From assembly GCA_019635285.1 (NCBI GenBank), contig JAHBZS010000020.1:1-64000 (forward strand): a stretch of DNA of 64,000 bases, read 5' to 3'. Both the position numbers and the translations under genes were made by a program. This document shows, piece after piece, positions 2,389-35,195 of the stretch. Position 1 is the stretch's first letter, and each line of letters starts with the position of its first letter. The notes beneath the pieces were generated by a model. The model saw only the letters and a list, made by a program, of their open reading frames with translations, was not told where the DNA came from and ran no database searches. The DNA comes from Rubrivivax sp. (GTDB lineage: Bacteria > Pseudomonadota > Gammaproteobacteria > Burkholderiales > Burkholderiaceae_C).

Positions 2389-2421
2389 GGCTTAAGGCTC
2401 CTGGATGTGGGTCTTCGGTGC

Positions 2422-3963
2422 CTACGGCCGGCGCAGCACGCTGACGTCGTCGTTGTTGATCAGGTCGGGCACGGTCCAGCCGTTGATGTCGTATTCGCCC
2501 ATGCACTTGTCGACCAGGTGCTTCATGCGCTCCATCTCGCCCAGTGAGTACGACTCCCACAGGTTCTGCAGCCGAGTCAGGTCGTTCGAGCCGAGGTAGT
2601 TGATTTCGTACAGCTCGCTGCGCCCGCCGAACTCGGTACCGATGCAGTCCCACAGCAGCTTCATCACCTTGACGCGGCCCTCGGCATCGACGCCCCCGGT
2701 GCCGCGCATATAGCGGTCCATGTGCGCGCGCAGCTCCGGCACCTTGAAGTCGTCGGCGTGCGAGTTCAGGTAGATCAGGCCCGAGGTGACGCTGGCCTCG
2801 ATGATTTGCTTGATCGCCGGGTAGGCGATCTGCGAGATCGTGCGGTAGGCGGTGCCAAAACGCGCGTCGGGCTGCACCATGCCGTGCCACGGGATGTTGC
2901 TCTTTGCCATCGCGTCGGACAGCCCCCACATCGTGTTGCGCCAGGCGACGACCTCGCCGAAGCGCGACTGCACGCCGTGGAAGCTGGAGGTGCCGGTGAT
3001 GTCCAGCGCCTTGGCGAGCACGCCGCAGATGAAGTCGAGCTTGACTGCCAGTCGCGTGCAGCCGTGCATCGCGGCGCGCGCGTTGAAGCCCGAGCCCGGC
3101 GCGAAGTCGTTGGCCTGGTTGACGTCGCCGTGCATGAACACGTTCTCCCAGGGCACGAAGACGTTGTCCAGCACCAGCACCGCGTCGTTCTCGTCCATTC
3201 GCGACGACAGCGGGTAGTCGAAGGGGCTGCCGAGCACCGCGGCGCGCTGCTCGTTGGAGACGCGCGAGATCATCTTCACGCCCGGCGTGCCGGTGGGCAC
3301 GATGAACACCGGGGCGTAGGCCGGGTCCTTGATCGGCACCTGGCCGGCGTGGGCGACGAAGGTGTAGTTGGTCAGCGCCGACGCGGTGGCCACGACCTTG
3401 GCGCCGCTGACATAGATGCCGGCGTCGGTCTCCTTGGTGACGTGCACGTAGACGTCGGAGGTGTCGGCGGTGGGTTTGTTGCGGTCCACCGGCGGGTTCA
3501 TGATCGCGTGGTTGATGTACCAGGTGCGCTCCTGCGCCTTGCGGTACCAGGCGGTGGCGTTGTGCTCGTAGCCGCGGTAGTAGGCGGCATTGGCGCCCAG
3601 CGTCGCCAGGAAGCTGCCCTTGTAGTCGGGCGAGCGGCCCATCCAGCCGTAGGAGATGCGCTGCGACTCGGCCACCGCGTCGCGTGCCGCCACCTGTTCC
3701 TCCACCGTCTTCGGCGCGCGGAAGTAGCGGTGCGTGAAGCCGCCCCACTCGGTTTCGGTGGTCAGCACGCTCTTGCGCGCCGGGTCGTGCATGGCGTCGT
3801 AGAAGCGCGCCACCATGCGCGCCGAGTTGCGGAAGGCCGGGTGCTCGGTGATCTTCTTGACCCGCTTGCCGTAGATCCAGACCTCGCGGTCGTCGTCCAG
3901 GCTGTCGAGGTATTCCTGGCCGGTCATGGGGATCAGCGCGGTCTGGTTCAGCGGTGCATTCAT
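2422..3963 (-). CDS. HpaB-family flavin-dependent aromatic hydroxylase, oxygenase component
   Basis: 513 residues from ATG at 3963 (MNAPLNQTALIPMTGQEYL), close to the usual ~520 of HpaB. Characteristic blocks are [63 protein letters not shown] and the C-terminal GRSELYEINYLGSNDLTR. Members use FADH2 supplied by a partner reductase to ortho-hydroxylate phenols. This is the paralogue of the gene at 1-943. By eye the two are very similar over the shared part, which suggests a tandem duplication followed by divergence, with two genes inserted between. It follows the ABC permease gene by 56 bases. A substrate-specific name would be over-annotation. Confidence 0.9.
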   Translation of the reverse strand: MNAPLNQTALIPMTGQEYLDSLDDDREVWIYGKRVKKITEHPAFRNSARMVARFYDAMHDPARKSVLTTETEWGGFTHRYFRAPKTVEEQVAARDAVAESQRISYGWMGRSPDYKGSFLATLGANAAYYRGYEHNATAWYRKAQERTWYINHAIMNPPVDRNKPTADTSDVYVHVTKETDAGIYVSGAKVVATASALTNYTFVAHAGQVPIKDPAYAPVFIVPTGTPGVKMISRVSNEQRAAVLGSPFDYPLSSRMDENDAVLVLDNVFVPWENVFMHGDVNQANDFAPGSGFNARAAMHGCTRLAVKLDFICGVLAKALDITGTSSFHGVQSRFGEVVAWRNTMWGLSDAMAKSNIPWHGMVQPDARFGTAYRTISQIAYPAIKQIIEASVTSGLIYLNSHADDFKVPELRAHMDRYMRGTGGVDAEGRVKVMKLLWDCIGTEFGGRSELYEINYLGSNDLTRLQNLWESYSLGEMERMKHLVDKCMGEYDINGWTVPDLINNDDVSVLRRP

Positions 3964-4019
3964 CGCGGGCTTCCGGTTGGTGGGTGTGGGATGTCGTGGC
4001 TTCATTTAAATGACGCGTG

Positions 4020-5024
4020 TCAATGGCGGGCGAGTGCCATCGCAAAGATCAGGATCGCGCCGATGGCCATGGTCTGGGCGTAGGCGCCGACCTGCATCAG
4101 GTTCAGGCCGTTCTGCACCAGCATGATCAGCAGCGTGCCCAGCAAAACCGCCAGCGTGCGCCCCTGACCGCCGGCCAAGCTGACGCCGGCGATGACGCAG
4201 GCGGCGATCGACTCCAGCGGCAGGCTGGCGCCGATGTTCGATTCGCCAGTGTCCAGCCGCGCCGTCAGCAGCAGGCCGGACAGCGCGGCCATCACGCTGG
4301 ACAACATGAAGGCGGTGACGATCACGCGGCCTGTGCGCACGCCTGACAGCTCGGCCGCGCGCTGGTTGCCGCCAGTGGCGTAGAGGTGACGGCCGAAGCG
4401 GGTCCACTCGAGCAGCACGTAGGTGCCGACCACCAGCACCGCTGCCACCAGCGCCGGCACAGGGATGCCGGCAATTTCGCCGAAGCCGAAGACCTTGCCG
4501 AGTTCGGGCGGCAGGCCGTAGATGGGCACGCCGCCGCTGACCAGCAGCGTGACACCGAAGAGCACAGAGGACATACCCAACGTCATCATGAATGGCGGGA
4601 TGCGCAGCCAGGTCGTGCCCAGGCCGTTGATGCCGCCGACGATGACGCCGATCAGCAGCCCGGACAGCAGCCCGGCGCCGATGGCCAGTCCCGGCGACTC
4701 GGGCATCGCGGCATAGACCGCGGCCATGACGGTGGCGCTGACCACCGAGGTCAGCGACACCACGGTGCCTACCGACAGGTCGAGCCCGCCGCAGACCAGC
4801 ACGATCAGCTGGCCGAGCGCGACAATCAGCAGGTACACCGACTGGCGCGCGATGTTGGTCAGGTTGTCGCTGCCGAGGAAGCCCGGTGCATGCGCCGAGA
4901 ACAACAGCACGGCGGCCACGAACATCACCGGCAGCGCCAGCGCCTGGCGGTTGCGGCGCAGCCAGGGCAGCAGTTCGAAGGCGGGCTCGGTGGGCACGGT
5001 GGCCGTGTGAGCGGGGGTGTTCAT
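4020..5024 (-). CDS. CUT2-type ABC transporter permease (RbsC-like)
   Basis: 334 residues, mostly hydrophobic, with about nine to ten predicted membrane segments. It contains the family signatures VLVCGGLDLSVGTVVSLTSV (about 77-96) and NGLGTTWLRIPPFMMTLG. The RbsC/BPD_transp_2 family forms the inner-membrane channel of ribose, xylose and similar importers. In E. coli-type systems one permease dimerises and works with one double-ATPase chain and one periplasmic protein, and that complete set is present here (4020-7664). The following genes are aromatic-catabolic, so the cargo need not be a sugar. The permease start lies 18 bases after the ATPase stop. Confidence 0.92.
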   Translation of the reverse strand: MNTPAHTATVPTEPAFELLPWLRRNRQALALPVMFVAAVLLFSAHAPGFLGSDNLTNIARQSVYLLIVALGQLIVLVCGGLDLSVGTVVSLTSVVSATVMAAVYAAMPESPGLAIGAGLLSGLLIGVIVGGINGLGTTWLRIPPFMMTLGMSSVLFGVTLLVSGGVPIYGLPPELGKVFGFGEIAGIPVPALVAAVLVVGTYVLLEWTRFGRHLYATGGNQRAAELSGVRTGRVIVTAFMLSSVMAALSGLLLTARLDTGESNIGASLPLESIAACVIAGVSLAGGQGRTLAVLLGTLLIMLVQNGLNLMQVGAYAQTMAIGAILIFAMALARH

Positions 5025-5042
5025 GGGCGTCGGCGTGGAGGG

Positions 5043-6566
5043 TCAGAAGAACTGCTCGAGGATGCGGTGCTCGTCGTAGTCGCCGCGCTGGAACTCGCAA
5101 GCGATGCGGCCGTTGTTCATCACCAGCAGGCGGTGCGTCATGCCCATCAGTTCGGGCAGGTCCGAGGAGACGAGCAGGATGGCGGCGCCGGCGGCGCTCA
5201 ACTCAGCCAGACAGTGATAAATCGCCAGCCGCGCGCCGATGTCCACGCCTACGGTCGGTTCGTCGAAGACGTAGACACCGATGTCCTGCGCCAGCCCCTT
5301 GGCGAGCAGCACCTTCTGCTGGTTGCCGCCGGAGAAGCTGTCCACCGGCTCGCGCAGCCGCGGCGCCGGAAACTCGACGCGGCGCGACATCTCACCGAGC
5401 GCCGCCGCCTCGCGCCGCGGGCGCAGCCAGCGGCTGCGCAGCCTGCCCCAGCGCAGGCCCGACAGCGACATGTTCTCGCGCGCCGGCCGGCCCAGCGCCA
5501 GGCCGTCGTGCTTGCGGTCGGCGGGGCTGTACCACAGGCCCTTGGCGATGGCGTCGGCCGGGTGCTTGAAGCTCACTTCGCGGCCGTCGAGCACGACGCG
5601 CCCGCTTTGCAGCCGGCGCAGGCCAAAGCAGGCCTGGGCCAGCTCGCTCTTGCCGCAGCCGACCAGTCCGGCGATGCCGACGATTTCGCCGGCGCGCACT
5701 TCGAGGCTTGCGTCGCTGACCGTGACCGACCCGGCTTCGGGCTCGAGGTTCAGGCCTTCGATCGCCAACCGCACCGCGCCCAGCGTCCGGCCCGGCTGCG
5801 GATAGATCTTGGCCAGCGTGCGCCCGGTCATCAGCTCGATCAGCCGGTTCTCCGGCGTGTCGGCCGACACGGTGGCGACGAACTGGCCGTCGCGCAGCAC
5901 CGTCACCTGATCGCCCAGCGCCGGAATCTCGTGCATGCGGTGGGTGATGTAGATGATCGCCGTGCCCTGCTCCTTGAGCTTGCGCACCAGGCCGAACAGC
6001 GCCTGCGCGTCGTGCTCTGACAGCGAGGCCGTCGGCTCGTCGAGGATGAGCACACGCGGCGGCCGGCGCAGCGCCTTGCAGATCTCGACCATCTGTTGTT
6101 TGCCGCGCGGCAGCGAGGCCACCTTGGCATCGGCGTCGAGCGCGAAGCCGAGTTCGTCGATCAGCCGCCGCGCCTCGTCGCGCGCCGCCGATTTCGACAG
6201 CAGCCGCGCGGCGCCGACCGGCTCCTCGCCGAGCGTAATGTTCTCGGCCACGCTCAGCTGCGGCACCAGTGAGAACTCCTGGAACACCGCGCGCACGCCA
6301 TGCTCACGCGCCTGCGCAACCGAGCGGAAGGCACCGCGGTGCCCGCCAATTTCAATCCCCCCGGCGCTGGGTTCGCGCGCACCGGCAAGCATCGAGATCA
6401 GCGTCGACTTGCCCGCGCCGTTCTCGCCAAAGAGGACGTGCACTTGGCCGGGATGCACGTCGAGGCTGACGCCGTCCAGCGCCAGGTTGTTGCCGTAGCG
6501 CTTGGACAGGCCGACCGCCCGCAGCACCGGCGCTGCGGCAGTCGGTGAAGTCACGAGTGTCTGCAT
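5043..6566 (-). CDS. CUT2-type ABC transporter ATP-binding protein, two fused ATPase domains (RbsA-like)
   Basis: 507 residues from the ATG at 6566; a TTG at 6578 is possible but less likely. Domain 1 has Walker A FGENGAGKST, a degenerate signature LPRGKQQMVEI and Walker B VLILDEPTAS followed by ITHRMHEI. Domain 2 has a degenerate Walker A GLVGCGKSEL, an intact signature FSGGNQQKVLLAKGL and Walker B VYVFDEPTVGVD. This asymmetry, with one composite ATP site weakened, is normal for the RbsA/MglA/XylG family. It energises the neighbouring permease. The 30-base gap to the binding-protein gene and 18-base gap to the permease gene indicate one operon. Confidence 0.92.
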   Translation of the reverse strand: MQTLVTSPTAAAPVLRAVGLSKRYGNNLALDGVSLDVHPGQVHVLFGENGAGKSTLISMLAGAREPSAGGIEIGGHRGAFRSVAQAREHGVRAVFQEFSLVPQLSVAENITLGEEPVGAARLLSKSAARDEARRLIDELGFALDADAKVASLPRGKQQMVEICKALRRPPRVLILDEPTASLSEHDAQALFGLVRKLKEQGTAIIYITHRMHEIPALGDQVTVLRDGQFVATVSADTPENRLIELMTGRTLAKIYPQPGRTLGAVRLAIEGLNLEPEAGSVTVSDASLEVRAGEIVGIAGLVGCGKSELAQACFGLRRLQSGRVVLDGREVSFKHPADAIAKGLWYSPADRKHDGLALGRPARENMSLSGLRWGRLRSRWLRPRREAAALGEMSRRVEFPAPRLREPVDSFSGGNQQKVLLAKGLAQDIGVYVFDEPTVGVDIGARLAIYHCLAELSAAGAAILLVSSDLPELMGMTHRLLVMNNGRIACEFQRGDYDEHRILEQFF

Positions 6567-23628: not shown

Positions 23629-25962
23629 TCAACATGAAGCCGTGCACACAGCTTTGGAAATGCGCGCCGTCGCGCTACCCCCCGGGCAAGGAAGGTCGAC
23701 ACTCCACCAAGTCGGCAGCAACCGCAGAACTTCAGGCTTGGCGAAACGATCGTCGATCAGATGCAGCACGCCACGATCCGACGGAGTCCGGATCACGCGC
23801 CCCGCGGCTTGCACCACCTTGCGGATGCCGGGGAATAGATAGGTGTAGTCGTAGCCCGCGCCGAACTCCGCGTCGAGCCGCCGTCGAAGCTCCTCGTTCA
23901 CCGGGTTCAGCTGCGGCAGCCCCAATGTCGCAACAAAGGCGCCGATCAATCGCGTCCCGGCCAAATCGATGCCCTCCGCAAACGCACCGCCCAGCACGGC
24001 GAAGCCCACCCCACAGCCATCGACGGCGAACCGCGCGAGAAAGGCTTCGCGCGCGCCCTGATCCATGCGTCGTCCTTGCTGCCATGTCGGGATGCCGGGA
24101 TGCCGTTCGCACAGTTCGCCCACCGCCTGTTCGAGGTAGTCGAAGCTGCTGAAGAAGGCGATGTAGTTGCCGGGCGCCGCTTCGTACTGCGCCGCGATCA
24201 GCCGCGCGATCGGTGCCAACGACCTGTCGCGGTGCCGGTAGCGCGTCGACACATCGGATGCGATGTGCACCGACAACTGCTCTGCCTTGAACGGAGCCGC
24301 CACGTCCAGCCACGCGGTGTCGTCGGGCAGGCCCAGCGTGTCGCTGTAGAAATGCCACGGCGTCAGCGTGGCCGAGAACAGCACGGCCGACCGGGCCGCC
24401 TCGAAGCGCGGCTTCAGGAACGGCGCCGGCAACAGGTTGCGTACGCACAATGCAGAACCTGCATGGCGCCGCCCCGGTCCCAGGTCCGAATCGAGGGTGA
24501 CGTCGAACAGCGAGTGCGTCCCGAAGCTGTCGAGCAGCCGGATGAACTGAAGCGCCTCGAAGTAGAACTGCAGCGAGGCGCCGTCGACGGCGGTCGGGCT
24601 GTCCGCCAGCCGCTCCGAGATTGCCCTGGTCGCGTCCTGCAACGCCGAAGCCAATGCCTTCGGCGGCGCGTCGAGCACGGTGTAGGGCTGGCTCAGCGGC
24701 TTTGTCAGTCGGCTCCAACTGCGTTGCAGGCGATCCAGTGGCTTCTTGAGACTGGCCGGCGCTGCCGAGCGCACCCGCCGTAACTGCGCCGAGTGCAGGC
24801 TCGCGGTGTACATCGCCCGCGCACGGTCGACGAGGTTGTGCGCTTCGTCGATGAGCACGGCCACGCGCCAGGCGTTGGCCAGCGTCAAGCCGTGCAGCAT
24901 CGCGGCACCGTCGAAGTAGTGGTTGTAGTCGCCGACGACCACGTCGCACCAGCGCGCGAGCTCCTGGCCGAGGTAGTACGGGCACACCGCATGCGCGAGG
25001 GCCACCTCGCGCAGCGACTTGCGGGTGAGCATGCCCGCTTCGACGGCCGCGGTGCGGGCGGCAGGCAAGCGATCGTAGAAGCCCCGGGCCAGCGGACACG
25101 AGTCGCCGTGGCACACCTTGTCCGGATGCTCGCAGGCCTTCTCGCGGGCCACGAGTTCGATCACTCTCAGCGGCATGGCGGGTTTGCTGCGACCAAGGGT
25201 CCGTAGCGCGTCCAGGGCAAGCGCCCGGCCGGTGCCCTTGGCCGTCAGATAGAAGATCTTGTCCAGTTCCCGCACCGGGCAGGCCTTGAGCATCGGGAAC
25301 AGCGTGGCCACGGTCTTGCCGATGCCGGTGGGGGCTTGTGCCAGCAGGCAGCGCCCGAGTCGGGCGGCGTTGAACACGGCCTTCGCCAGGTCGCGCTGCC
25401 CTGCCCGGAACTCGTCGTGCGGGAAGCGCAGATGCGTCAGCGCGGCGTCGCGCTGCTCGCGGTGGGCGAGTTCATTGTCTGCCCATGCGATGAAGCGCTC
25501 GCACAGCGCCTCGAAGAAGGCCTGCAGTTCGGCGGCGGTGCAGTGCCGTGTCATCGCAGGCGCCTGTTGCTGCCTGCCGATGTCGAAGTAGACCAGCGAC
25601 ACGGTCAGCTCGGCCAGGTCGTACTGCCGGCACAGCAGCGCGCCGTAGACCTGGGCCTGCGCCCAGTGCAGCTGCCGATGGTTCTCGGGCATCAGCCCGA
25701 GGTCGCCCTTGAAGGTCTTGACCTCCTCCAGCAGATGCCGATCGGGGTCGTAACCATCGGCGCGGCCGCGCACGACCAGGCGCCGGTACTCGCCGCTCAA
25801 CCGGACTTCGCTGCGGTAGGACGCCGAACGGCTCGCGGCAACGGTCCGGTGGCCGGCGATGCCTTGCTGCGAAGTCGGCGATGGCGTGAAGCGCAGGTCG
25901 AGGTCGACCCGCTTGGCGGCGAACTCGCACAGCGCACGCACGGCGACGGTGTAGGTCTTCAT
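23629..25962 (-). CDS. DinG/XPD-type Fe-S DNA helicase with N-terminal RecB-like nuclease-type domain
   Basis: 777 residues. The N-terminal region has a PD-(D/E)xK-like pattern (D69 in GRADGYD, E80-V-K82 in LLEEVKTFKG) followed by HWAQAQVYGALL, resembling the QxxxY motif of RecB-family nucleases. The superfamily 2 helicase part has Walker A APTGIGKT (210-217), four cysteines C277, C284, C289 and C327 placed to hold a 4Fe-4S cluster, and DEAH at 372-375. The C-terminal motor includes VLFSATLTPWHFY, GGAFAEGIDLAG and QAAGRVIRTPSDRG. It probably unwinds damaged or structured DNA 5'-3'. Its ATG overlaps the preceding stop (ATGA at 25959-25962), making it the last gene of the mutasome operon. Confidence 0.87.
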   Translation of the reverse strand: MKTYTVAVRALCEFAAKRVDLDLRFTPSPTSQQGIAGHRTVAASRSASYRSEVRLSGEYRRLVVRGRADGYDPDRHLLEEVKTFKGDLGLMPENHRQLHWAQAQVYGALLCRQYDLAELTVSLVYFDIGRQQQAPAMTRHCTAAELQAFFEALCERFIAWADNELAHREQRDAALTHLRFPHDEFRAGQRDLAKAVFNAARLGRCLLAQAPTGIGKTVATLFPMLKACPVRELDKIFYLTAKGTGRALALDALRTLGRSKPAMPLRVIELVAREKACEHPDKVCHGDSCPLARGFYDRLPAARTAAVEAGMLTRKSLREVALAHAVCPYYLGQELARWCDVVVGDYNHYFDGAAMLHGLTLANAWRVAVLIDEAHNLVDRARAMYTASLHSAQLRRVRSAAPASLKKPLDRLQRSWSRLTKPLSQPYTVLDAPPKALASALQDATRAISERLADSPTAVDGASLQFYFEALQFIRLLDSFGTHSLFDVTLDSDLGPGRRHAGSALCVRNLLPAPFLKPRFEAARSAVLFSATLTPWHFYSDTLGLPDDTAWLDVAAPFKAEQLSVHIASDVSTRYRHRDRSLAPIARLIAAQYEAAPGNYIAFFSSFDYLEQAVGELCERHPGIPTWQQGRRMDQGAREAFLARFAVDGCGVGFAVLGGAFAEGIDLAGTRLIGAFVATLGLPQLNPVNEELRRRLDAEFGAGYDYTYLFPGIRKVVQAAGRVIRTPSDRGVLHLIDDRFAKPEVLRLLPTWWSVDLPCPGGSATARISKAVCTASC

Positions 25963-26798
25963 GCGTCGTCCGCTGCGGCACCATCACGCGCCGCTGACGT
26001 GTCGCCCAACTCCTGCTGCACCGCTTCACTGTCGAGCCCAGACGGTGTGGCCTGGGCGAGCGCCATCCACACGGAGAACGGCAGCTTGCACGGCACATGC
26101 CGCGGCGGGCGGGCGAGCTCGAGCGATCCGGAGTCGAACGGACCGTGCAGCAGCCAGACGCCGAAGGGCTCCGGGATCTCGTGCGGCTCGGCCACTCCCA
26201 GCGGCAGGACGTAGAAGGTCTCGCAGGATAACCACCGATAGGACTCACGCTTGGCGGCATGGCGCAGGTCGGACAGCAGGTCGGCGCGGCTGACCTTGAT
26301 CTCGTGGACCATCGGCTGCAGATAGTCCTCGACCGAGGTCCGGCGCACGGAAAACACGTCGGGCCGAGCCATGCGCCAGGAGGATGGACCCGGACGGTGC
26401 GATCGCGGGATCGTCTCATCGTCCAGCCGCAGGGCTTCGTCGAAGCTTGAAGTCGTGCCGACGGCTGGTTCATCGGGGCTCGTGATCCGCGCGCGAACGG
26501 GCAGTTCGCGCCAGACGATCCGCCCCGCGGCCATCAGCTGGGCAGCGACACGGGCCGCGAGCTGATCGTGCGCACTGAGCGAGCGCTGGTTGCGACGGCG
26601 CGCCTCGGCCAGCAGGCGGATGCCGGCGGCGGTCAACCGAATCGTCTCGCGTCCGTCGGCATCCTGGACAAGCGCTGCCCAGCCGGCCGCAAGCAGATCG
26701 AGTTCGACCGCATCTCGGCAGGGCCATCCGGCCGATCGCCAGATCGACATCAGGCGCGTCAGATGAATGCGGCGGGCGGTGATCGGCGCAGCGGTCAT
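25959..26798 (-). CDS. MmcB-like PD-(D/E)xK nuclease-type protein of the SOS operon
   Basis: 279 residues. The first 70 look like a winged helix (HLTRLMSIWRSAGWPCRDAV, LTAAGIRLLAEARRR). The C-terminal half has a nuclease-type core: RPDVFSVRRTS with D147, MVHEIKVSRADLLSDLRH with E166 and K168, then YRWLSCETFYVLPLGV. This D...ExK pattern followed by an aromatic FYVLP strand resembles the MmcB DNA-repair protein linked to SOS and mitomycin resistance in Caulobacter. The start overlaps the dnaE2 stop by one base (TGATG) and the stop overlaps the helicase start, so translation is coupled. Nuclease activity is inferred from the motif. Confidence 0.75.
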   Translation of the reverse strand: MTAAPITARRIHLTRLMSIWRSAGWPCRDAVELDLLAAGWAALVQDADGRETIRLTAAGIRLLAEARRRNQRSLSAHDQLAARVAAQLMAAGRIVWRELPVRARITSPDEPAVGTTSSFDEALRLDDETIPRSHRPGPSSWRMARPDVFSVRRTSVEDYLQPMVHEIKVSRADLLSDLRHAAKRESYRWLSCETFYVLPLGVAEPHEIPEPFGVWLLHGPFDSGSLELARPPRHVPCKLPFSVWMALAQATPSGLDSEAVQQELGDTSAARDGAAADDA

Positions 26799-29700
26799 CA
26801 GCGGAACTCCCGGGTCGTCGTGGCCAGACCACCCAGCAGCGCGGACAGATCCTCGACATGTCCTGCAATCAGGTTGCGCACGTCCCCTTCGCGCTGCCAG
26901 GTGCCCTTCACTGCCATCAACCGTGATCTGAGCAGCGGAATGCGCCACTTGGTCTTCACCTTCGGCCAGACGATGATCTGCACGTTGCCGGTCTCGTCCT
27001 CCAGCGACACGAACATCACTCCCTTGGCCGTCTCCGGCTGCTGCCGCACCGTGACGATGCCGCAGGCCCGCGCCAGCCGCCCGGTCGGCAGGTCGTGCAG
27101 TTCGGCCGCGGTCTTCCAGCCCAGTGCAGACAGCTTCGGCCGCAGAATCGCGAGAGGATGCCGGCGCAGTGTGAGGCCGGTGGCCGCGTAGTCCCACACT
27201 ACCTCTTCGCCCTCGCCCGCCGCCGGCAATTCCAGCGGCTCTTCGTCGACCGGCGCTTCGCGCAGCAGCTGCGGCGCAGACCGCAATCCGGCTGCTTCCC
27301 AGACCTGCTGACGCCGGTGTCCGGCCAGGCTCATCAGCGCATCGGCGCTGGCCAGCTGCGTCATCTCGTGCTGCTCGAGCCGGGCGCGCCGCGCCAGGTC
27401 CTCTGCGCTGTCGAACGGTGCCTCGCGCCGCTCAGCGACGATGCGCTGGCCAGACTCCAGCTTCAGACCGGACACCAGTCGCAATCCCAAGCGCACGGCC
27501 GGCGGATGCGGCAGGCCTTCGAGGGTGCAGTCCCAGTCGCTGTGCATAACGTCCACACGCCGCACCTCCACGCCATGGCGCTTTGCGTCCTGCACCAGCT
27601 GGCTCGGCGAATAGAAGCCCAGCGGCTGGCTGTTGAGCATCGCCGCGAGGAACTCGCCCGGGTGGTGGCACTTGATCCAGCACGAGGCGTACACCAGCAG
27701 CGCGAAGCTGGCGGCATGGCTCTCCGGGAAGCCGTATTCGCTGAAGCCCTTGATCTGCTCGAAGATCGCCTCGGCAAAGGAGCGTTCGTAGCCCCGCGAA
27801 GTCATGCCGTCGACGATGCGGGCGTGGTATTGCTGCAGCCCGCCCTTGCGCTTCCACGCCGCCATCGCGCGCCGCAGTTGATCGGCCTCCCCGGCCGTGA
27901 AACCCGCCGCCAGCATGGCCACCTGCATCACCTGTTCCTGGAACACCGGCACGCCCAGCGTGCGGCCCAGCGCCTGCTCCAATGCCTTGCTCGGGTAGCT
28001 GACCGGTTCCTTGCCCTGCCGCCGGTTCAGGTACGGATGCACCATGCCGCCTTGGATCGGCCCGGGGCGCACGATCGCCACCTCGATCACCAGGTCGTAG
28101 AAGCAGCGCGGCCTCAAGCGCGGCAACATGCTCATCTGGGCTCGACTCTCGATCTGGAACACGCCGACGGTGTCGGCCTGGCAGATCATGTCGTAGGTGG
28201 TCTGGTCCTCGGCCGGGATGTCCTGCATCGAAAACGCGTGGCCCTTGCGCTGGCCGATGAAGTCGAGGCTCTTGCGAATCGCGGTCAGCATGCCCAACGC
28301 CAACACGTCGACCTTGAGCAGGCCGAGCGCATCGATGTCGTCCTTGTCCCATTGGATGACGGTGCGGTCGGGCATCGCCGCGTTCTCGATCGGCACCATG
28401 CGCGACAGCGGCCCCTTGGTCAGCACGAAGCCGCCAGGGTGCTGTGACAGGTGCCGCGGCAGGTTGATGAGCTGGCCGGTGAGATGCACCAGCTGCCGGA
28501 TGACCAGATCGTCGAGCGACAGGCCAAGTTCGGCGATTCGCTCGGGCATCACACCCACGCCGTCCCACCAGCTGTGGTTCTCGGCCAGCGCGTCGATGGT
28601 CGCGGTATCGATGCCCAGCGCCTTGCCGACATCGCGGATGGCGGACTTCGGCCGGTAGCTGATGGCCACAGCCGTCAGCGCGGCACGGCTACGGCCGTAC
28701 TTGTCATACAGGTACTGGATCACCTCCTCGCGCCGCTCGTGCTCGAAGTCAACGTCGATGTCGGGGGGCTCGTTGCGCTCGCGGCTGATGAAGCGCTCGA
28801 AGAGCACGCTCATCCGCGCCGGGTCAACCTCGGTCACGCCCAGGCAGTAGCAGACCACCGAGTTGGCGGCGGAACCGCGGCCCTGGCACAGGATGTGGCG
28901 CGAGCGTGCGAAGGCGACGATGTCGTAGACGGTGAGGAAGTAGTGCTCGTACTTCAGCTCTGCGATGAGCTCCAGCTCGTGTTCGATCTGGGACTGCACC
29001 TTGGCCGGGGCGCCGTCCGGCCAGCGCCGCCCTGCCCCTTCGTAGGTGATGCGCCGCAGGTACGAGCTGGGCGTCTCGCCCGAAGGCACCACCTCGTCGG
29101 GGTACTGGTACTTGAGTTCGTCCAGCGAGAAGGTGCAGCGCTCGGCCACCTGCAGCGTCTGCGCCAGCAGGTCTGTAGGGAAGGTCTGCGACAGCCGCAA
29201 GCGCGTGCGCAGATGCCGCTCGGCATTGACTTGCAGTTCCAGTCCGCACTCGGTCAGCGGCTTGCCAATGCGGGTGGCCGTCATCACGTCGAGCAGCGGC
29301 TTGCGCGAACGCACGTGCATATAGACATCGCCGACCGCCACCAGCGGGATGGCAGACAGGTCGCTGGCCTCACGCAGCCGGTACAGCCACATCTCGTCGT
29401 CCAGCTGGCGCAGCAGTTCGACGCCCAGCCAGCAGCGGCCGGTGAAGCGCGCGAGCAGCCACCGGGCCAAGCCCAGCAGCTGCGCTGGCGTGGCGCCGCG
29501 CAGCGGCGAGGCAACGACCACGCAGTCGTCCAGGACGGCGGTCGCCAGGTCCTGCAGACACAGCCGGTAGGTGCCCTTCGGCGCATTGCGGCGCAGTGCG
29601 GTGATGAACTCGCACAGGTTGCCGTAGCCGTTCAGGTTGCGCGCCAGCACCACGAGGTCGAACGGGCTTGGCTCATCACCTTCCTGGACCTGGACCCGGA

Positions 29701-29926
29701 ACTGGCTGCCGACCAGCAGCTTCAGGCCCACGCGCTGGGCGGCCACATGGGCGCGCACGATGCCGGCCATCGAGCATTCGTCGGTCAGCGCCAGTGCGCT
29801 GTAGCCCATGGTCTTCGCGCGCTCGATCAGTTCCTCCGGCTGGCTGGCGCCGAGCAGGAAGCTGAAGGTGCTGACACATCTGAGTTCAGCATAGGCCGGC
29901 AGTCCTGGAGTCGGTTCCACGGCCAC
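26798..29926 (-). CDS. dnaE2: Error-prone DNA polymerase III alpha subunit DnaE2 (ImuC)
   Basis: 1042 residues. The N-terminal PHP domain contains ELRCVSTFSFLLGASQPEEL and LALTDECSMAGIVRAH. The catalytic C-family polymerase motif PPDIDVDFEHERREE lies at 387-401, and HPGGFVLT, a helix-hairpin-helix region and an OB-fold (GIVTVRQQPETAKGVMFVSL) follow. The length and absence of the long DnaE1 C-terminus identify the DnaE2 branch, which performs translesion synthesis with ImuA and ImuB after DNA damage. The start is GTG, adjoining the imuB stop (TGAGTG). Expression should depend on the LexA site upstream of imuA. Confidence 0.95.
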   Translation of the reverse strand: MAVEPTPGLPAYAELRCVSTFSFLLGASQPEELIERAKTMGYSALALTDECSMAGIVRAHVAAQRVGLKLLVGSQFRVQVQEGDEPSPFDLVVLARNLNGYGNLCEFITALRRNAPKGTYRLCLQDLATAVLDDCVVVASPLRGATPAQLLGLARWLLARFTGRCWLGVELLRQLDDEMWLYRLREASDLSAIPLVAVGDVYMHVRSRKPLLDVMTATRIGKPLTECGLELQVNAERHLRTRLRLSQTFPTDLLAQTLQVAERCTFSLDELKYQYPDEVVPSGETPSSYLRRITYEGAGRRWPDGAPAKVQSQIEHELELIAELKYEHYFLTVYDIVAFARSRHILCQGRGSAANSVVCYCLGVTEVDPARMSVLFERFISRERNEPPDIDVDFEHERREEVIQYLYDKYGRSRAALTAVAISYRPKSAIRDVGKALGIDTATIDALAENHSWWDGVGVMPERIAELGLSLDDLVIRQLVHLTGQLINLPRHLSQHPGGFVLTKGPLSRMVPIENAAMPDRTVIQWDKDDIDALGLLKVDVLALGMLTAIRKSLDFIGQRKGHAFSMQDIPAEDQTTYDMICQADTVGVFQIESRAQMSMLPRLRPRCFYDLVIEVAIVRPGPIQGGMVHPYLNRRQGKEPVSYPSKALEQALGRTLGVPVFQEQVMQVAMLAAGFTAGEADQLRRAMAAWKRKGGLQQYHARIVDGMTSRGYERSFAEAIFEQIKGFSEYGFPESHAASFALLVYASCWIKCHHPGEFLAAMLNSQPLGFYSPSQLVQDAKRHGVEVRRVDVMHSDWDCTLEGLPHPPAVRLGLRLVSGLKLESGQRIVAERREAPFDSAEDLARRARLEQHEMTQLASADALMSLAGHRRQQVWEAAGLRSAPQLLREAPVDEEPLELPAAGEGEEVVWDYAATGLTLRRHPLAILRPKLSALGWKTAAELHDLPTGRLARACGIVTVRQQPETAKGVMFVSLEDETGNVQIIVWPKVKTKWRIPLLRSRLMAVKGTWQREGDVRNLIAGHVEDLSALLGGLATTTREFR

Positions 29927-31243
29927 TCACGCGAAGATGCCGTGCAGATACCAGGCGGTCTCGTCGCCGCCCAGTCGCTGCTGGAAGATCCACAGCACGC
30001 CGGCATGCTCGCTGAGCGCGACCCAGTAGTCGCGCTCGACGTGGGCGGTGGTGGCTTCTTCACCTTGCCCGATGCGATGCCACCAGCCGCCTTCGACCCG
30101 GTGCGGGCCGGTGACCAGCAACAGCACGCCCTGGTACATCGGCCGGTGGCCGCGCGTGGCCAGCTTCAGCGGCTGCGCCAGCACCCAGGTCGGCTGCGGC
30201 ATCTGGGATGCCGGCGATGACTTGCGAGTCTGCCTCGGCTGCGGCAGCGGCTGCCACATCTGCATCCACTCCAGCCGATGGTCATCGGTCAGCACCGGAC
30301 GCAGCACATGCTCCGGGCCGATGCGCGCGGCGATGCGTTCCAGCACCAGTTGCAGCGACTCGCCGTCGTTGGCCGGGTCGGGCAGCAACGAGGCGCTCTT
30401 CTCGTCCAGCGCGACGATTTCGGTGGCGACGATCCGCAGTTCGCCGGCGGGTGCCTGCAACTCCAGCTTGGCCAGGTGTTCGGCCAGCAGCCGGCACAGG
30501 TGTTCGAGGTTGCGGCTGGGCTCGGCGGCGCGGATGCACAGTTCGCCGCCCTCGCCTGCCGAGCGCGAACGCATGGCGTCGTGAGCCCACTGCAGCGTGA
30601 AGGCACTGACACCACTGTGCCGTGCCGCCAGCCAGCCGCACATCTGCAACAGAAGTCGTCTGGCGCCGAAGAGCAGCGCCGGCGCCATCTCCACCCGCGA
30701 CAACAACTCCAGCCGGGCCTCGAAGGTCTCGGGCATCTCGATCCAGGTGTGGGCCTCGGGCTGCAAGCCGTAGGCCTGGTCCAGCGCCAGCAGCAGCGAC
30801 TTGTCGAAGCGGCGGCTCAGGCCACCGCGCGGCAGGCGGCGCACGTCACCCAGCGTGCGGCAGCCGAGGCGTGCCAACGTGGCTTCGTGTGCGTGCACGT
30901 CACTGAGCACCTTCAGCGGCAGCCGGTCAAGCAATTCCTCCAACGGCCGCTTGAAGCCGTTCTCCAGTCCAGCCCGCGCAAAGGCCTGGGCGGCCAGGCT
31001 GTTGACGGCCCAGGCGACGCTGACGACGCCGAGGTCGCGGCTTTCCTGGACCACGCGGTCGCGCAGCGCGCGCTTGCCCTCGAAGAGCCGCGCGCTGGCC
31101 TCGACCTCCATCAGCACGGCGTCCTCGCTGACGGCGACCCGGGGCGTGAACTGCAGGGCCCAGATCGCGACGGAGCGCAGGGCCTCAGCGGACGGCAGCG
31201 CTTCGTCGGGGCGCGGCGGCAGGAGCATTGCTGCCCAGAGCAT
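29927..31243 (-). CDS. imuB: ImuB, Y-family polymerase-like mutasome protein
   Basis: 438 residues. It has the finger/palm-derived Y-polymerase fold (VLMEVEASARLFEG, VAWAVNSLAAQAFARAG, LPLKVLSDVHAHEATLARLG for the HhH region) but not the acidic residues needed for nucleotide transfer. ImuB proteins are inactive polymerases that tether DnaE2 and the sliding clamp. The C-terminal part carries YQGVLLLVTGPHRVEGGWW and ERDYWVALSEHAGVLWIFQQ, typical for ImuB. The start overlaps the end of imuA by 59 bases, and dnaE2 follows immediately. Confidence 0.92.
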   Translation of the reverse strand: MLWAAMLLPPRPDEALPSAEALRSVAIWALQFTPRVAVSEDAVLMEVEASARLFEGKRALRDRVVQESRDLGVVSVAWAVNSLAAQAFARAGLENGFKRPLEELLDRLPLKVLSDVHAHEATLARLGCRTLGDVRRLPRGGLSRRFDKSLLLALDQAYGLQPEAHTWIEMPETFEARLELLSRVEMAPALLFGARRLLLQMCGWLAARHSGVSAFTLQWAHDAMRSRSAGEGGELCIRAAEPSRNLEHLCRLLAEHLAKLELQAPAGELRIVATEIVALDEKSASLLPDPANDGESLQLVLERIAARIGPEHVLRPVLTDDHRLEWMQMWQPLPQPRQTRKSSPASQMPQPTWVLAQPLKLATRGHRPMYQGVLLLVTGPHRVEGGWWHRIGQGEEATTAHVERDYWVALSEHAGVLWIFQQRLGGDETAWYLHGIFA

Positions 31244-32033
31244 GGACAGGTTCCCGTGGGAGCGTGCGGGCGGCCAGCAGCTGGCTCGGCCGCAGCAGCC
31301 GTGGCGTGAGGATGGTCTGCAGGCCGCCGGGCACGGAGGGCAGCGTGACCACCCCGTCGTGCGCCGGGCCGCGGCGCTTCAGCACCTGGACCTGCAGCGC
31401 CCAGTCGATGCCGAAGGTCGTGAAGACGCGCAGCGGCGCGGCCGAGGCTTCGTGCTGTGCGGCTGCGGGGCGGAACAGGAACACCGGGCCTTCGCAGGAC
31501 TGGGCGCAGACCTGCAGCCGCCGGATCTGCTCCGGCCGGGCCTGCGGCAGCCAGGACACGATGGCACCGCAGGCGCCGGACTTGATCAGTTGCTCAGTGC
31601 ACCACAGCCGTTCGGCCGGGGCATCGGCCTGCACCCAGACCAGGTGGCGTTCGTCGATGCCGCAGTGGCGAAGGCCCGGTAGGTGCGGCGTCTTCGGCGG
31701 GCCGATGACGACGATGTGGCCGCCGGCGGCGACGATGCCCTGCAGGGCCGGGCCGATCAGCCGCCACTCCAGCACCGAGGGCTGCGGGCTGAGGACCTCG
31801 GTCAGGCCCCGCGTGGGCCAACCACCGCCCGGCAGTTCGGCATCCAGGGCCGCGAAGCCGCTGGACACGACGGTGCCGGACGCATGCCCCAGGTCGCTGC
31901 CGCGCCAGACAGCCTGCTCCACTTCAGGCGGCAGTTCACCCGGCGCCGAGCGGCGCGGGCGTGATCGTGAGGCGTGAACGAAGCTCTGGGCCGGCAGCCC
32001 GTCGTCTGCAGCCCATGACAGAACGGCGGACAT
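31185..32033 (-). CDS. imuA: ImuA, RecA-like mutasome protein
   Basis: 282 residues related to the RecA/SulA-like fold: SSGFAALDAELPGGGWPTRG, TEVLSPQPSVLEWRLIGP, HIVVIGPPKTPHLPGL and WVQADAPAERLWCTEQLI. The would-be P-loop (GPPKTPH) is degenerate, as usual in ImuA. In SOS mutagenesis ImuA links the mutasome to RecA. It is the first gene of the leftward five-gene operon. The ATG lies 11 bases from the LexA box at 32045-32064, which fixes both the start and the regulation. Confidence 0.92.
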   Translation of the reverse strand: MSAVLSWAADDGLPAQSFVHASRSRPRRSAPGELPPEVEQAVWRGSDLGHASGTVVSSGFAALDAELPGGGWPTRGLTEVLSPQPSVLEWRLIGPALQGIVAAGGHIVVIGPPKTPHLPGLRHCGIDERHLVWVQADAPAERLWCTEQLIKSGACGAIVSWLPQARPEQIRRLQVCAQSCEGPVFLFRPAAAQHEASAAPLRVFTTFGIDWALQVQVLKRRGPAHDGVVTLPSVPGGLQTILTPRLLRPSQLLAARTLPREPVHALGSNAPAAAPRRSAAVR

Positions 32034-32044
32034 CGTGCGACCTA

Positions 32045-32064
32045 AGCTGTATGGATATCCAGTA
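32045..32064. promoter_or_regulatory. LexA (SOS) box shared by imuA and the DUF3268 gene
   Basis: AGCTGTATGGATATCCAGTA matches the enterobacterial/beta-proteobacterial LexA consensus TACTGTATATATATACAGTA at 15 of 20 positions, with the CTGT and CAG half-sites in register. It lies 11 bases upstream of imuA (left) and 67 bases upstream of the DUF3268 gene (right). Genes leave it in both directions, so one LexA dimer could repress both. Confidence 0.85.
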
Positions 32065-32131
32065 TTACACTACCTGCCATCGGCTGCCAAGTGGGGACGA
32101 GATTCCGAGACGAGCAGTCGTTCACTCGAAC

Positions 32132-32626
32132 ATGGCCACGCCTCCGATCTGCTCCTGCTGCGGCGCCACTGCGTCACTGGTAACCGGTGCTCGCCTCTAT
32201 CCGCATCGGCCCGAGTTGGCCGAGCGCAGCTTCTGGGAGTGCGCCGCTTGCCAGGCTTGGGTCGGCTGCCACACGCCGCGCGGCAATGACGATCCCGAGT
32301 GCCCGCGGCCGCTGGGCACGCTGGCCGATGCGTCGCTGCGGCGCTGGCGCAATTCGGCGCACGCGCTCTTCGATCCGCTGTGGCAGTCTGGCCGGATGAG
32401 CCGCGGCCAGGCCTATGAATGGCTGGCAGCGAAGATGGGGCTGCCGAGGGCGCAGTGCTTCATCGGCGGCCTCAGCGAGGCGCAGTGCAAAGCCGTGGTG
32501 GAGATCTGCGCACGGGCTCCGGGCGACGAAGCACCGGTCAGCGCAGACGACATGCAGGCCATGCGCGAGTTCGCAGCCGAAGTCGCGCGCACGGGCAGCG
32601 TGCCGAAGAAGCCCTCGCTGCTCTGA
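32132..32626 (+). CDS. DUF3268 zinc-finger-containing protein
   Basis: 164 residues from ATG 32132; an upstream in-frame ATG at 32051 would lie inside the LexA box. The N-terminal zinc-binding part has C7-x2-C10 and C37-x2-C40 (ICSCCG, WECAACQAWVGCH). Then come GTLADASLRRWRNSAHALFD and SRGQAYEWLAAKMGLPRAQC, the helical part typical of this family. The fold hints at nucleic-acid or protein binding, but no function is established as far as I know. It reads away from imuA across the LexA site, so SOS induction is a fair inference. It converges on the SRAP gene. Confidence 0.8.
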   Translation: MATPPICSCCGATASLVTGARLYPHRPELAERSFWECAACQAWVGCHTPRGNDDPECPRPLGTLADASLRRWRNSAHALFDPLWQSGRMSRGQAYEWLAAKMGLPRAQCFIGGLSEAQCKAVVEICARAPGDEAPVSADDMQAMREFAAEVARTGSVPKKPSLL

Positions 32627-32650
32627 GCCGAGCCGTTCGTTCGGAGCTGT

Positions 32651-33610
32651 CTACGCCGCCAGGCGGTGCTCGTAGTACGGGCGCTCGCGGTCGTCGAGGA
32701 TGGCGTACTGCGCCGCCAGATTGCGCGGATCGGGGTTGAGCCACTCGTCGAGCCGCTCCCGGCGCAGCGGGATGATGCAGCGGTCGTGGCCAGCGGCCGC
32801 CACTTCGGGCGGTGGCTCGTCGGTGATGGCTGCCACGGAATCCAGGTCGGGCTCGTCCTTGCCAGTCCAGTGCGACCAGACGCAGGCGACGAGCATCGGC
32901 TCCCTACCGTGCGGGCGGAACTCGAGGATGACGTCCTCGGGCTCCTCGCCGGGCCGCAGCTCGCGGCCTTCCATCTTGTGCCGGCCGACGTGCTCGTAAA
33001 AGGCTTCGGCCAACATCACGCCGTGATGGCGGCCGAACTGGCCCCGCCAGAATCCTTCGAGGTTGTCGCGGCGAGCGTTGTAGCAGCCGGGGAACTTCTG
33101 GTCGTAGAAGGCGGGCTTGCCGGCCGGACGGCATTGGTAGCGCATCAGGCGGACGACGCGCTGGCCGTTCTCGACGACCATGACCGGGGCGTAGGTGCCG
33201 GGGTAGATGCGGTCGTCTTCAGGCAAGGCCTCGGTGCGCTGCAGGTCGGCGAGCTTGTCCCGGGCCCAGTCGATCTTCTTCTGGGCGATGCGTTGGTCCT
33301 CGCTGTACTTCTTGGTGAACTTGAGCTGCAGCTGCTTGTCGGCTTCGACGAGCCGGGTGCGCTGTTCGAACAGGGTGCGCTGATGAACCCGGGCCTCGCG
33401 CTCGCGGTGTTCGGCGATGAGCCTCTGGATCTGGCGCTCTTCGTCGGTGACCGGGTGGTCGAAGGCAGCCTCAACCCCTCGCGCGATCAGCAACTTGCGG
33501 TTGTTGTGGCGGCGCCAGAAGGCGTCGTAGAACTGCTTGAGGTCGACGGTGGCACCGAACAGGCGCACGTAGGCTCGGTAGTCGGCGACGACCTTGGCGG
33601 AGTAGCACAT
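32651..33610 (-). CDS. yedK: SRAP-family abasic-site protein (YedK/HMCES-like)
   Basis: 319 residues starting MCYSA. The catalytic cysteine is C2, exposed after Met removal, which forms a thiazolidine link to abasic sites in single-stranded DNA. Other family blocks are CYNARRDNLE, GVMLAEAFYEH (conserved Glu) and AAGHDRCIIPLRRERLDEWL (conserved His). The protein is longer than E. coli YedK (~220), because about 90 residues of charged helix (HREREARVHQRTLFEQRTRL and onward) are inserted near the N-terminus. It shields abasic sites during replication. It lies beside the SOS mutasome and converges with the DUF3268 gene. A weak LexA-like site precedes it. Confidence 0.9.
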   Translation of the reverse strand: MCYSAKVVADYRAYVRLFGATVDLKQFYDAFWRRHNNRKLLIARGVEAAFDHPVTDEERQIQRLIAEHREREARVHQRTLFEQRTRLVEADKQLQLKFTKKYSEDQRIAQKKIDWARDKLADLQRTEALPEDDRIYPGTYAPVMVVENGQRVVRLMRYQCRPAGKPAFYDQKFPGCYNARRDNLEGFWRGQFGRHHGVMLAEAFYEHVGRHKMEGRELRPGEEPEDVILEFRPHGREPMLVACVWSHWTGKDEPDLDSVAAITDEPPPEVAAAGHDRCIIPLRRERLDEWLNPDPRNLAAQYAILDDRERPYYEHRLAA

Positions 33611-33634: not shown

Positions 33635-33828
33635 ACGGGCGGACTTTACGCTGTGAAGGTTCAGCGGATGGTTGATGGATCGGAACAGTGGTGTGCGCAG
33701 TGCGCCAGTTCCCTATCGATGATTCGCCGGGAAAAGTCATCGCACCGCGATCAGCCCGGCTGGCCTACGCTTTCCGGAAGTGGGGACACCGTTGATGCGT
33801 GGCGCGCTCTCGTCACCAACTTCCGCCT

Positions 33829-34161
33829 ATGCAGACATTGACGCTCAGCGAAGCCGCAGCCTTCCTAAAGATGCATCCCGAGGAAGTGCGCAGCCGTGCC
33901 AAACGGGGGGTACTTCCGGCCTGCAAGCCCGGGCGCCGCTGGGTCTTCATAGACGATGACCTTGCAGCCTTCCTCCGTGATCGATACTCTTCTCAGCGGC
34001 AAGCGTTGCGAGTGGCCTCCGAGAAAGGAAGGTCAGTATGGCCATACGCAAGCGAGGCGCCGTCTGGTGGATCGACTTCACAACCCCATCGGGCGAGCGC
34101 ATACGAAGAAGCGCTGAAACCGGCGACAAGACCGAGGCGCAGGAGTACCACGATCGGCTGA
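33829..34161 (+). CDS. Excisionase-like helix-turn-helix protein
   Basis: 110 residues. The first ~55 form an HTH_17/excisionase-type domain: TLTLSEAAAFLKMHPEEVRS, AKRGVLPACKPGRRWVFIDD, DLAAFLRDRY. The remaining tail (RASEKGRSVWPYASEAP and on) overlaps the integrase gene by 124 bases in another frame and is low in complexity, so the functional protein may be just the HTH part. Such small proteins upstream of tyrosine integrases usually act as recombination directionality factors. The start ATG at 33829 is the first one with the full domain. The 218 bases upstream (33611-33828) hold no gene. Confidence 0.65.
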   Translation: MQTLTLSEAAAFLKMHPEEVRSRAKRGVLPACKPGRRWVFIDDDLAAFLRDRYSSQRQALRVASEKGRSVWPYASEAPSGGSTSQPHRASAYEEALKPATRPRRRSTTIG

Positions 34162-35105
34162 AGGCCGAGGCGTGGCGGCAAGACAAGCTCGATGAGGGCC
34201 CAAGGCGCACCTGGAACGACGCCGTCGTCCGATGGTGTGCGGAACAGTCCCACAAGGCGACTGCCGAGGAAGACAAGGCAAAGCTGCGTTGGCTTGATCG
34301 CTACCTAGGCAACAAGCTGCTCGACAGCATCAACCGCGACATGATCGAACAAGTCATACGAGCAAAGCAAGCGGACAGGTGCAGCAATGCCACCGTCAAC
34401 CGCACGCTCGCCCTCGTGCGCTCGATCTTGCGCAAGTGCGCGCGCGAGTGGCAATGGCTGGACCGCGCGCCGGCGGTGCGGATGCTAAAGGAGCCGACGC
34501 GACGCATTCGCTACCTGACACACGAGGAAGCTGATCGGCTGCTGGCCGAGCTGCCCACGCACCTGCGCGACATGGCGGCCTTCAGTCTCGAGTCGGGCCT
34601 TCGCGCGGCCAACGTCACGGGTCTGCGCTGGTCAGCGGTGGACCTTAACCGCAGACTGGCCTGGGTGCATCCCGACGAAGCAAAGGCGCGAAAGGCGATA
34701 CCGGTGCCGTTAAATGGCGAAGCCGTGTCGATCCTGCAAAAGCAGATCGGCAAGCACCTGGATCACGTGTTCACGTTCAAGGGTCAACCTGTCGAACAAT
34801 TGAGCACGGCCGCCTGGTACAAGGCGCTGAAGCGTGCTGGCATCGAGAACTTCCGCTGGCACGACCTGCGTCACACTTGGGCTAGCTGGCATGTTCAGAG
34901 CGGCACGCCACTGCACGTGTTGCAGGAGCTGGGAGGCTGGGCGAGCTACGCGATGGTTCAGCGCTACGCCCATCTCGCCGCCGACCATCTCGCGCCTTGG
35001 GCCGAGCGCCTGGCGCGGTCGCGTGGAGATCGCGGCACAAATCCGTCACAACCGACGGAAAGCGGCAACGACTCGCGTGTGCTTGCATCACGCAAGTCGT
35101 TGTGA
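34038..35105 (+). CDS. Tyrosine-type site-specific integrase
   Basis: 355 residues. The N-terminal arm-type/core-binding SAM-like region spans about 1-150. The catalytic domain has R189 in SLESGLRAANVTGLRW, H275-x2-R278 in WHDLRHTWASW, W301 in LGGWASYAMV, and the nucleophile Y310 in QRYAHLA, with a likely lysine in EAKARKAIPVP. All conserved catalytic positions are therefore filled and the enzyme looks intact. The stop lies only 14 bases from the 3' end of a tRNA-Lys gene, the classical attachment site. Base composition is noticeably less GC-rich than in its neighbours. No phage structural gene is seen, which suggests an integrative island rather than a prophage. Confidence 0.93.
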   Translation: MAIRKRGAVWWIDFTTPSGERIRRSAETGDKTEAQEYHDRLKAEAWRQDKLDEGPRRTWNDAVVRWCAEQSHKATAEEDKAKLRWLDRYLGNKLLDSINRDMIEQVIRAKQADRCSNATVNRTLALVRSILRKCAREWQWLDRAPAVRMLKEPTRRIRYLTHEEADRLLAELPTHLRDMAAFSLESGLRAANVTGLRWSAVDLNRRLAWVHPDEAKARKAIPVPLNGEAVSILQKQIGKHLDHVFTFKGQPVEQLSTAAWYKALKRAGIENFRWHDLRHTWASWHVQSGTPLHVLQELGGWASYAMVQRYAHLAADHLAPWAERLARSRGDRGTNPSQPTESGNDSRVLASRKSL

Positions 35106-35119
35106 ACACAGAGAAAATT

Positions 35120-35195
35120 TGGTGGGCCCTGAAGGATTCGAACCTTCGACCAACGGATTAAGAGTCCGCTGCTCTACCAACTGAGCTAAGGACCC
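35120..35195 (-). tRNA. tRNA-Lys (anticodon CTT)
   Basis: 76 bases on the minus strand from GGGTCCT to the encoded CCA. The acceptor stem GGGTCCT/AGGGCCC pairs with one G-T. The D-arm is AGCTCAGTTGGTAGAGC, the anticodon loop is ACTCTTAATC giving CTT, and the T-arm is GGTTCGAATCC. It is the second gene of a tRNA-Lys pair. Its 3' end faces the integrase gene 14 bases away and probably contains the attachment core. Confidence 0.95.

Follow-up and report, generated by a model that had tools for sequence, protein, structure and literature searches.

A LexA-boxed imuA-imuB-dnaE2 operon that runs on into an MmcB-like nuclease and an EndoDinG-type nuclease-helicase in Rubrivivax sp.

In the 64-kb stretch of Rubrivivax sp. 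DNA analyzed here (contig JAHBZS010000020.1, positions 1 to 64,000; hereafter the window), an SOS mutasome operon with the gene order imuA-imuB-dnaE2 continues beyond the error-prone polymerase into genes for an MmcB-like nuclease and an EndoDinG-type nuclease-helicase. Elsewhere these last two genes form an SOS operon of their own, and the reading toward which we lean, with moderate confidence, is that two SOS operons have been fused here into a single module for incision, unwinding and bypass. What is new is the regulatory wiring—the pair is found behind its own LexA box, under a box shared with imuA, or with divergent boxes, SOS control being kept throughout. In a literature search judged by titles and the beginnings of abstracts, with subscription literature mostly outside its reach, none of the papers listed joins imuABC, MmcB and a helicase in one operon.

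Layout and predicted SOS control of the five genes

The operon comprises five genes, all on the minus strand, of which the MmcB-like nuclease gene and the helicase gene are termed gene 4 and gene 5 below. Together with their putative control elements they are, in the direction of reading:

32061..32090, minus strand: sigma-70-like promoter, TTGGCA-18-AATACT, with its -10 element overlapping the LexA box
32045..32064, minus strand: LexA box TACTGGATATCCATACAGCT, a 20-mer lying 11 bases before the imuA ATG
31185..32033, minus strand: imuA (NF033429, 217 bits, cut-off 150)
29927..31243, minus strand: imuB, named from its position and its relatives
26798..29926, minus strand: dnaE2 (imuC), error-prone C-family polymerase (NF004225, 1482 bits, cut-off 939; Pfam domains)
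25959..26798, minus strand: gene 4, MmcB-like PD-(D/E)xK nuclease, its core preceded by an additional region that is probably winged-helix (residues D147/E166/K168, hhalign, match of the model to 3dnx)
23629..25962, minus strand: gene 5, EndoDinG-type nuclease-helicase with a Cas4/EXO5-like N-terminal domain, an XPD/DinG motor and a four-cysteine Fe-S-type site (9kqh, E 2e-106 over residues 4-753)

Every junction in this array overlaps or touches. The imuA and imuB genes overlap by 59 bases, imuB is in contact with the GTG start of dnaE2 at TGAGTG, dnaE2 has TGATG in common with gene 4 (ATG start), and gene 4 has ATGA in common with the helicase gene. An earlier note on this DNA had listed these same junctions and had placed the start of the operon 11 bases from a good LexA box; both statements hold, and its view of a single SOS-type unit with overlapping genes is borne out by the junctions and the LexA box before imuA. 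The layout, the box and the promoter-like site are read directly from the sequence, and we infer from them one LexA-controlled operon that is presumably transcribed as a single message. Co-regulation of the five genes is well supported by this arrangement, and their translation is probably coupled.

The LexA box is the sole TACTG-N10-CAG site of the window and also its sole CTG-N10-CAG site with at least six A/T in the core. Base composition alone predicts roughly one chance TACTG-N10-CAG per window; hence, the weight of the imuA box comes from its position and its conservation. The latter was gauged in 77 related mutasome loci (72 newly fetched plus L101-L104 and L110, the contig-end fragment L111 being left out and L113 ending inside dnaE2). 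Five of these have no imuA or no upstream sequence; among the other 72, a CTG-N10-CAG with at least five A/T in its core occurs within 300 bp before imuA in 70, against 531 of 15,400 random 310-bp windows. These windows were drawn from the same loci, and the random windows here and below include the true boxes. The promoter-like site is the only one found between 23400 and 34200, where shuffles lead one to expect 0.5, making the scan alone weak evidence. No LexA box precedes gene 4 in an AT-rich CTG-N10-CAG scan of the whole window.

The encoded proteins

ImuA and DnaE2 both exceed the curated NCBIfam cut-offs. ImuB stays below the cut-off in the family models scanned and has no Y-family match in the PDB; the matches of its family are weak, with IMS_C at best E 0.07 in four of 14 members and DNA polymerase IV at E 0.003 in one of the 14. 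The name fits the position in the operon and the conserved C-terminal tryptophan. The window shares with the imuA-imuB-dnaE2 (imuABC) systems of Caulobacter and Pseudomonas the gene order, the LexA box before imuA and the ImuA and DnaE2 family matches; unlike in those known mutasomes, its genes run on into the nuclease and the nuclease-helicase. A 2026 survey of DnaE2 modules gives ImuA, ImuB, Y-family, RecA and ImuB-C as the partners, and the words helicase and MmcB are absent from its main text (PMC12926913).

The best score against PF06319 (MmcB) among four gene 4-type proteins scanned is 19.0 bits, from locus L025, against a cut-off of 22. However, when the EIK core of gene 4 is compared with a profile of 12 PF06319 members from Pseudomonadota, hhalign matches the two at 94.7% (E 5.6e-8, 75 columns), and all 24 aligned proteins keep D147, E166 and K168. 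The predicted structure of gene 4 (mean predicted local distance difference test score, pLDDT, 81.9) retrieves 3dnx through Foldseek at E 3e-6, with a TM-score of 0.66 by target and 0.36 by query, as its single structure match below 0.001; the profile of PF06319 members finds the same entry at E 9e-48. Weaker fold matches are to MarR-type regulators, which suggests that the N-terminal part is probably winged-helix-like. The profile-profile match, the fold and the residues support gene 4 as an MmcB-like PD-(D/E)xK protein and a predicted nuclease. In this respect the three catalytic-type residues and the class named in the earlier note stand, even though the window protein falls short of the Pfam MmcB cut-off.

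According to a review, the MmcB of Caulobacter is an SOS endonuclease that protects cells from mitomycin C and, by hypothesis, cooperates with translesion polymerases in dealing with crosslinks (PMC9578287). Gene 4 shares with MmcB, as typified by PF06319 and 3dnx, the PD-(D/E)xK core and the SOS control of many of its members. It is distinguished by its sub-threshold Pfam score, a region of about 130 residues N-terminal to the core, a C-terminal QxxL tail and its coupling to an EndoDinG. This tail is variable and acidic, with the Q-x-x-L motif at residues 261-264 in the window protein and in 24 of 24 aligned proteins. The motif is loosely matched in 22 of 25 tails read from the genus (the tail was not found in four more) and takes the form QDSL in locus L168. 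It is possibly a binding motif. Compared with the usual clamp motif, it lacks the final hydrophobic residue.

By alignment and model, gene 5 is an EndoDinG, a member of an already named class of DinG with a Cas4/EXO5-like domain, and we predict for it endonuclease and 5'-3' helicase activity. The match listed above is to the solved DinG of Finegoldia magna (9kqh), and the motor scores 117.5 bits with Helicase_C_2 (cut-off 25.3) and 43.3 bits with DEAD_2 (cut-off 21). The model of the N-terminal domain (pLDDT 88.6) matches 9kqh, SSO0001, EXO5, RecE and Cas4. H38, E52, D69, E80 and K82 are invariant in 15 of 15 aligned proteins, as are the cysteines C277, C284, C289 and C327; for the class, a review names H, E, D, E and K together with four cysteines (PMC11981726). 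The window protein is hence like the published EndoDinG proteins in its PD-(D/E)xK N-terminal domain, its four-cysteine site and its XPD-like motor, and unlike them in its setting beside an MmcB-like nuclease and a mutasome, a context absent from the sections of that review consulted. The structure comparisons that the earlier note had proposed for gene 4 and the helicase N-terminus led to 3dnx in the one case and to the Cas4/EXO5-like set in the other. Its Fe-S helicase with a RecB-like N-terminus retains both the Fe-S-type cysteines and the RecB/Cas4-like domain, the claim being weakened in that the class has a name; the idea of a new nuclease-helicase fusion was rejected, as 9kqh and the EndoDinG class already exist. 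As a separate matter, 9kqh has alanine where all 15 aligned proteins have Asp69, and one guess is that it may be an engineered inactive variant.

The nuclease-helicase pair with and without a mutasome

Gene 4 was run as a pattern against 84,980 species genomes, a scan that finds only close relatives and from which the window's own genome may be missing. It yielded 31 loci, all from Burkholderiales taxa except for one from a Gammaproteobacteria metagenome-assembled genome (MAG). A mutasome directly precedes gene 4 in three of them: L003 and L004 from Rhizobacter, the contig of L003 ending inside the helicase gene, and L006 from a Burkholderiales MAG. The earlier note had allowed that the two distal genes might adjoin a mutasome in this genome only; the recurrence of the order in these three genomes speaks otherwise, and in a further locus, L168, the same genes are united in a different order. 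There the helicase gene is divergent from imuA-imuB-dnaE2-mmcB, with two LexA boxes in between, and identities to the window proteins of 51% for ImuB, 62% for DnaE2, 38% for gene 4 and 57% for the helicase mark a distinct lineage.

Apart from a mutasome, the pair is commonly found by itself. Counting the mmcB remnant of L033, gene 4 has the helicase behind it in 18 of 28 non-fused loci. Sixteen stand-alone pairs with upstream sequence could be scored, eight of them from Acidovorax and so non-independent; 13 of them (all but L008, L009 and L018) have a strict LexA box shortly ahead of gene 4, compared with 106 of 8,700 random windows. A further stand-alone pair, L048, has the box as well. At the gene 4 stop, the overlap with the helicase gene is ATGA in eight of the 16 and GTGA in seven more. 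In the fused relatives L003, L004 and L006, no LexA box precedes mmcB (0/3); in all three a box stands before imuA instead, the L004 one having been recognized by eye. Since the box before imuA thus replaces the pair's own, the fused pair lies under another promoter and yet still under LexA. Where gene 4 occurs without the helicase, L005, L020 and L024 have a box and L007 has none.

Phylogenies place the fused proteins close to one another in part. In the helicase tree, the window groups with L003 (partial), L004, L006 and L033 (100/100), while the gene 4 tree ties the window to L003 and L004 and joins the stand-alone L005 to the fused L006 (99/95). Taken with the DnaE2 tree given below, which disagrees with these two, they fit both a single capture of the pair with losses and repeated transfer. 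A rival view, that the fused order arose by chance, is decaying and will not last, is suggested by its rarity, its absence from the nearest DnaE2 relatives and the mmcB remnant in L033; we consider this extremely improbable, since all four fused genomes have an intact gene 4, the helicase is intact in the three in which its gene is complete, and the junctions in the window are tight. The remnant itself (L033, 1600-1830) covers only residues 2-41 and stands before a helicase 82% identical to that of the window, with no mutasome within 1.6 kb.

In the wider taxon, ImuB of the window type (E <=1e-110) occurs in seven of 81 genus genomes and in 60 of 349 family genomes, the window genome being counted in both. 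One genome of the survey, G337, has a second imuA-imuB (L121, G337:C4:851570-870895) with no dnaE2 match in the fetched stretch. The helicase is present in 139 of the 349 family genomes and co-occurs with this ImuB in 41, an association with a Fisher p of 1.1e-6 that is uncorrected for phylogeny; the two genes lie close together in three of the 41. Plasmids also carry the helicase and, at 27-33% identity, distant MmcB-like proteins.

Several of the results count against a fused and functionally joined unit. Most directly, the arrangement is rare: of the 69 loci whose 3' sequence extends to 1.2 kb or more, three have gene 4 no further than 400 bp past dnaE2, namely L123 (the same as L004), L166 (the same as L006) and L168. 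It is also absent around the closest polymerases: neither mmcB nor the helicase lies behind dnaE2 in any of the seven fetched loci whose DnaE2 is most similar (81-85% identity; L101-L104, L110, L120 and L165), only 1.4 kb being available for L110. The conservation of gene order that the earlier note had proposed to look for exists in three further genomes (L003, L004 and L006) but is far from general. When the window genome is set aside, 40 genomes have both helicase and ImuB, and the two are adjacent in two of them; with a 15-kb limit 0.27 would be expected (P 0.03), and with a 6-kb limit, picked after seeing the data, P is 0.005. The DnaE2 tree leans toward grouping the window with mutasomes that do not have the pair (92/92, below the tool's starred support). 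Two of the DnaE2-near loci have anti-phage systems identified by PADLOC directly 3' of dnaE2, IetA-IetS in L101 (G067) and Mokosh MkoA-MkoB in L102 (G075), which speaks against a fixed partnership. The window's gene 4 has no Pfam match, the MmcB family included. The short form of mmcB without the helicase, which is the common one in the genus, has no LexA box in any of six cases or in 27 genus loci (L049-L075); hence, SOS control belongs to the pair and to some single genes rather than to the whole gene 4 family. Likewise, in ten further helicase loci, chosen rather than random and all without mmcB, a strict LexA box within 400 bp was found in none. A FAN1/VRR-NUC gene as the partner of EndoDinG elsewhere was considered and rejected, for none was seen among the neighbors of these ten helicases when their translations were judged by eye.

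This distribution bears most on the alternative that the five genes merely need the same SOS switch, the pair and the mutasome acting on different lesions and never cooperating. Each part does seem self-sufficient, in that the pair is also found as a separate LexA operon and the mutasome is without the pair in 66 of 69 loci. Against this, the same five genes have been united in two layouts and the distributions are correlated, albeit without correction for phylogeny. We regard pure co-regulation as rather unlikely, though it deserves to be taken seriously next to the fusion of two SOS operons into one functional module.

Neighboring genes, possible mobility and the proposed role

Upstream of the operon, the window has the following further features:

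32132..32626, plus strand: zinc-finger gene of the DUF3268 type, pointing away from imuA on the other side of the LexA box (PF11672, 109 bits, cut-off 28.4)
32651..33610, minus strand: SRAP (HMCES/YedK-type) gene, the protein beginning Met-Cys (PF02586, 59 bits, cut-off 27.1)
33799..34161, plus strand: excisionase-like HTH_17 gene, start uncertain (PF12728, 43.7 bits, cut-off 27)
34038..35105, plus strand: tyrosine integrase, its end 14 bp from the tRNA-Lys gene (PF00589, 113.5 bits, cut-off 27.1)
35120..35195, minus strand: tRNA-Lys(ctt), edge of a variable region (tRNA call and genus comparison)

The DUF3268 and SRAP genes, which the earlier note had seen as completing the block, are indeed present as neighbors, but their inclusion in the operon was rejected from strand and order, DUF3268 being divergent and SRAP lying beyond it. 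SRAP beside imuABC is a described association (PMC3765255), from which the window departs in that its SRAP gene is parted from imuA by the divergent DUF3268 gene. The same order of SRAP, divergent DUF3268 and imuA is seen again in L152 (G214) at 2005-5053. Near the mutasome in the 77 loci, DUF3268 occurs in three (L137, L152 and L157) and SRAP in 14.

The integrase beside the tRNA-Lys gene, absent from the earlier note, raises the possibility of a mobile mutasome with exchangeable 3' cargo, in which the MmcB-like protein and the EndoDinG may target phage or plasmid DNA instead of serving repair. Two of 25 tRNA-Lys loci from the genus were near contig ends and were dropped; among the other 23, the 940-bp flank to the left of the tRNA is alike in four of 253 locus pairs and the outer right flank of the same length in 128 of 253. 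The left flank being rarely alike and the right one more conserved, the tRNA-Lys gene marks the edge of a variable region. A mobile origin would also fit the second copies in the window genome: an imuB-dnaE2 cut by a contig end (L105, G000:C23), with ImuB at 40% identity, and, on another contig, a short mmcB-like gene without the helicase (L106, G000:C45). The restriction of the window ImuB type to seven of the 81 genus genomes, the IetA-IetS and Mokosh genes noted above and the mobile mutasomes known from a symbiotic plasmid (PMC4151985) and an integrative and conjugative element (PMC7466150) point the same way. In a third locus, L103 (G082), the genes behind dnaE2 resemble those of L101, a likeness that rests on their lengths and N-termini rather than on PADLOC.

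However, no att repeat or second copy of the tRNA 3' end was found in the window or in the genome, a draft of 89 contigs, and ten proteins scanned further to the left include no mobility gene. Defense cargo turned up in no more than three genomes, two of which (G067 and G082, the sources of L101 and L103) have nearly identical loci and 6-7% contamination, and ten further chosen cargo proteins gave one weak PADLOC match; the proposal that the cargo behind the mutasome is generally defense was rejected on these grounds. In the window itself, PADLOC recognizes nothing in gene 4, SRAP and DUF3268, and it picks up the helicase only through its models of DinG-type helicases. Moreover, the stand-alone pair mostly has a LexA box, as expected of repair. 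The reading of a mobile mutasome with exchangeable cargo seems to us improbable.

For the fused SOS module we propose the following course of events, in which the enzyme activities are inferred from the families of the five proteins and their joint action on one lesion is a proposal. Damage would lead to the cleavage of LexA and so open the imuA promoter, and all five proteins would be made together. EndoDinG would then unwind the DNA around a blocking lesion while its Cas4-like domain trims or nicks it, and the MmcB-like nuclease would make or complete the incision beside the lesion. ImuA-ImuB-DnaE2 could thereafter copy past what remains of it. Interstrand crosslinks would be the likeliest substrate. 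The operon is what the hypothesis linking MmcB and translesion polymerases in crosslink processing (PMC9578287) would predict, although joint action is not proven thereby. A bolder version is that of a self-contained machine for unhooking and bypassing interstrand crosslinks or comparable obstacles, put together on more than one occasion from SOS operons that had been separate, and spreading as an accessory cassette; we put this forward tentatively and think it doubtful as a whole.

Some EndoDinG helicases are hereby tied to the SOS response, whereas the cellular role given in the review is only a predicted one (PMC11981726). The five genes offer a small genetic system for testing whether nuclease incision and error-prone bypass constitute one bacterial pathway. 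Should the unhook-and-bypass cassette prove real, cells acquiring it would gain crosslink repair and mutagenesis together.

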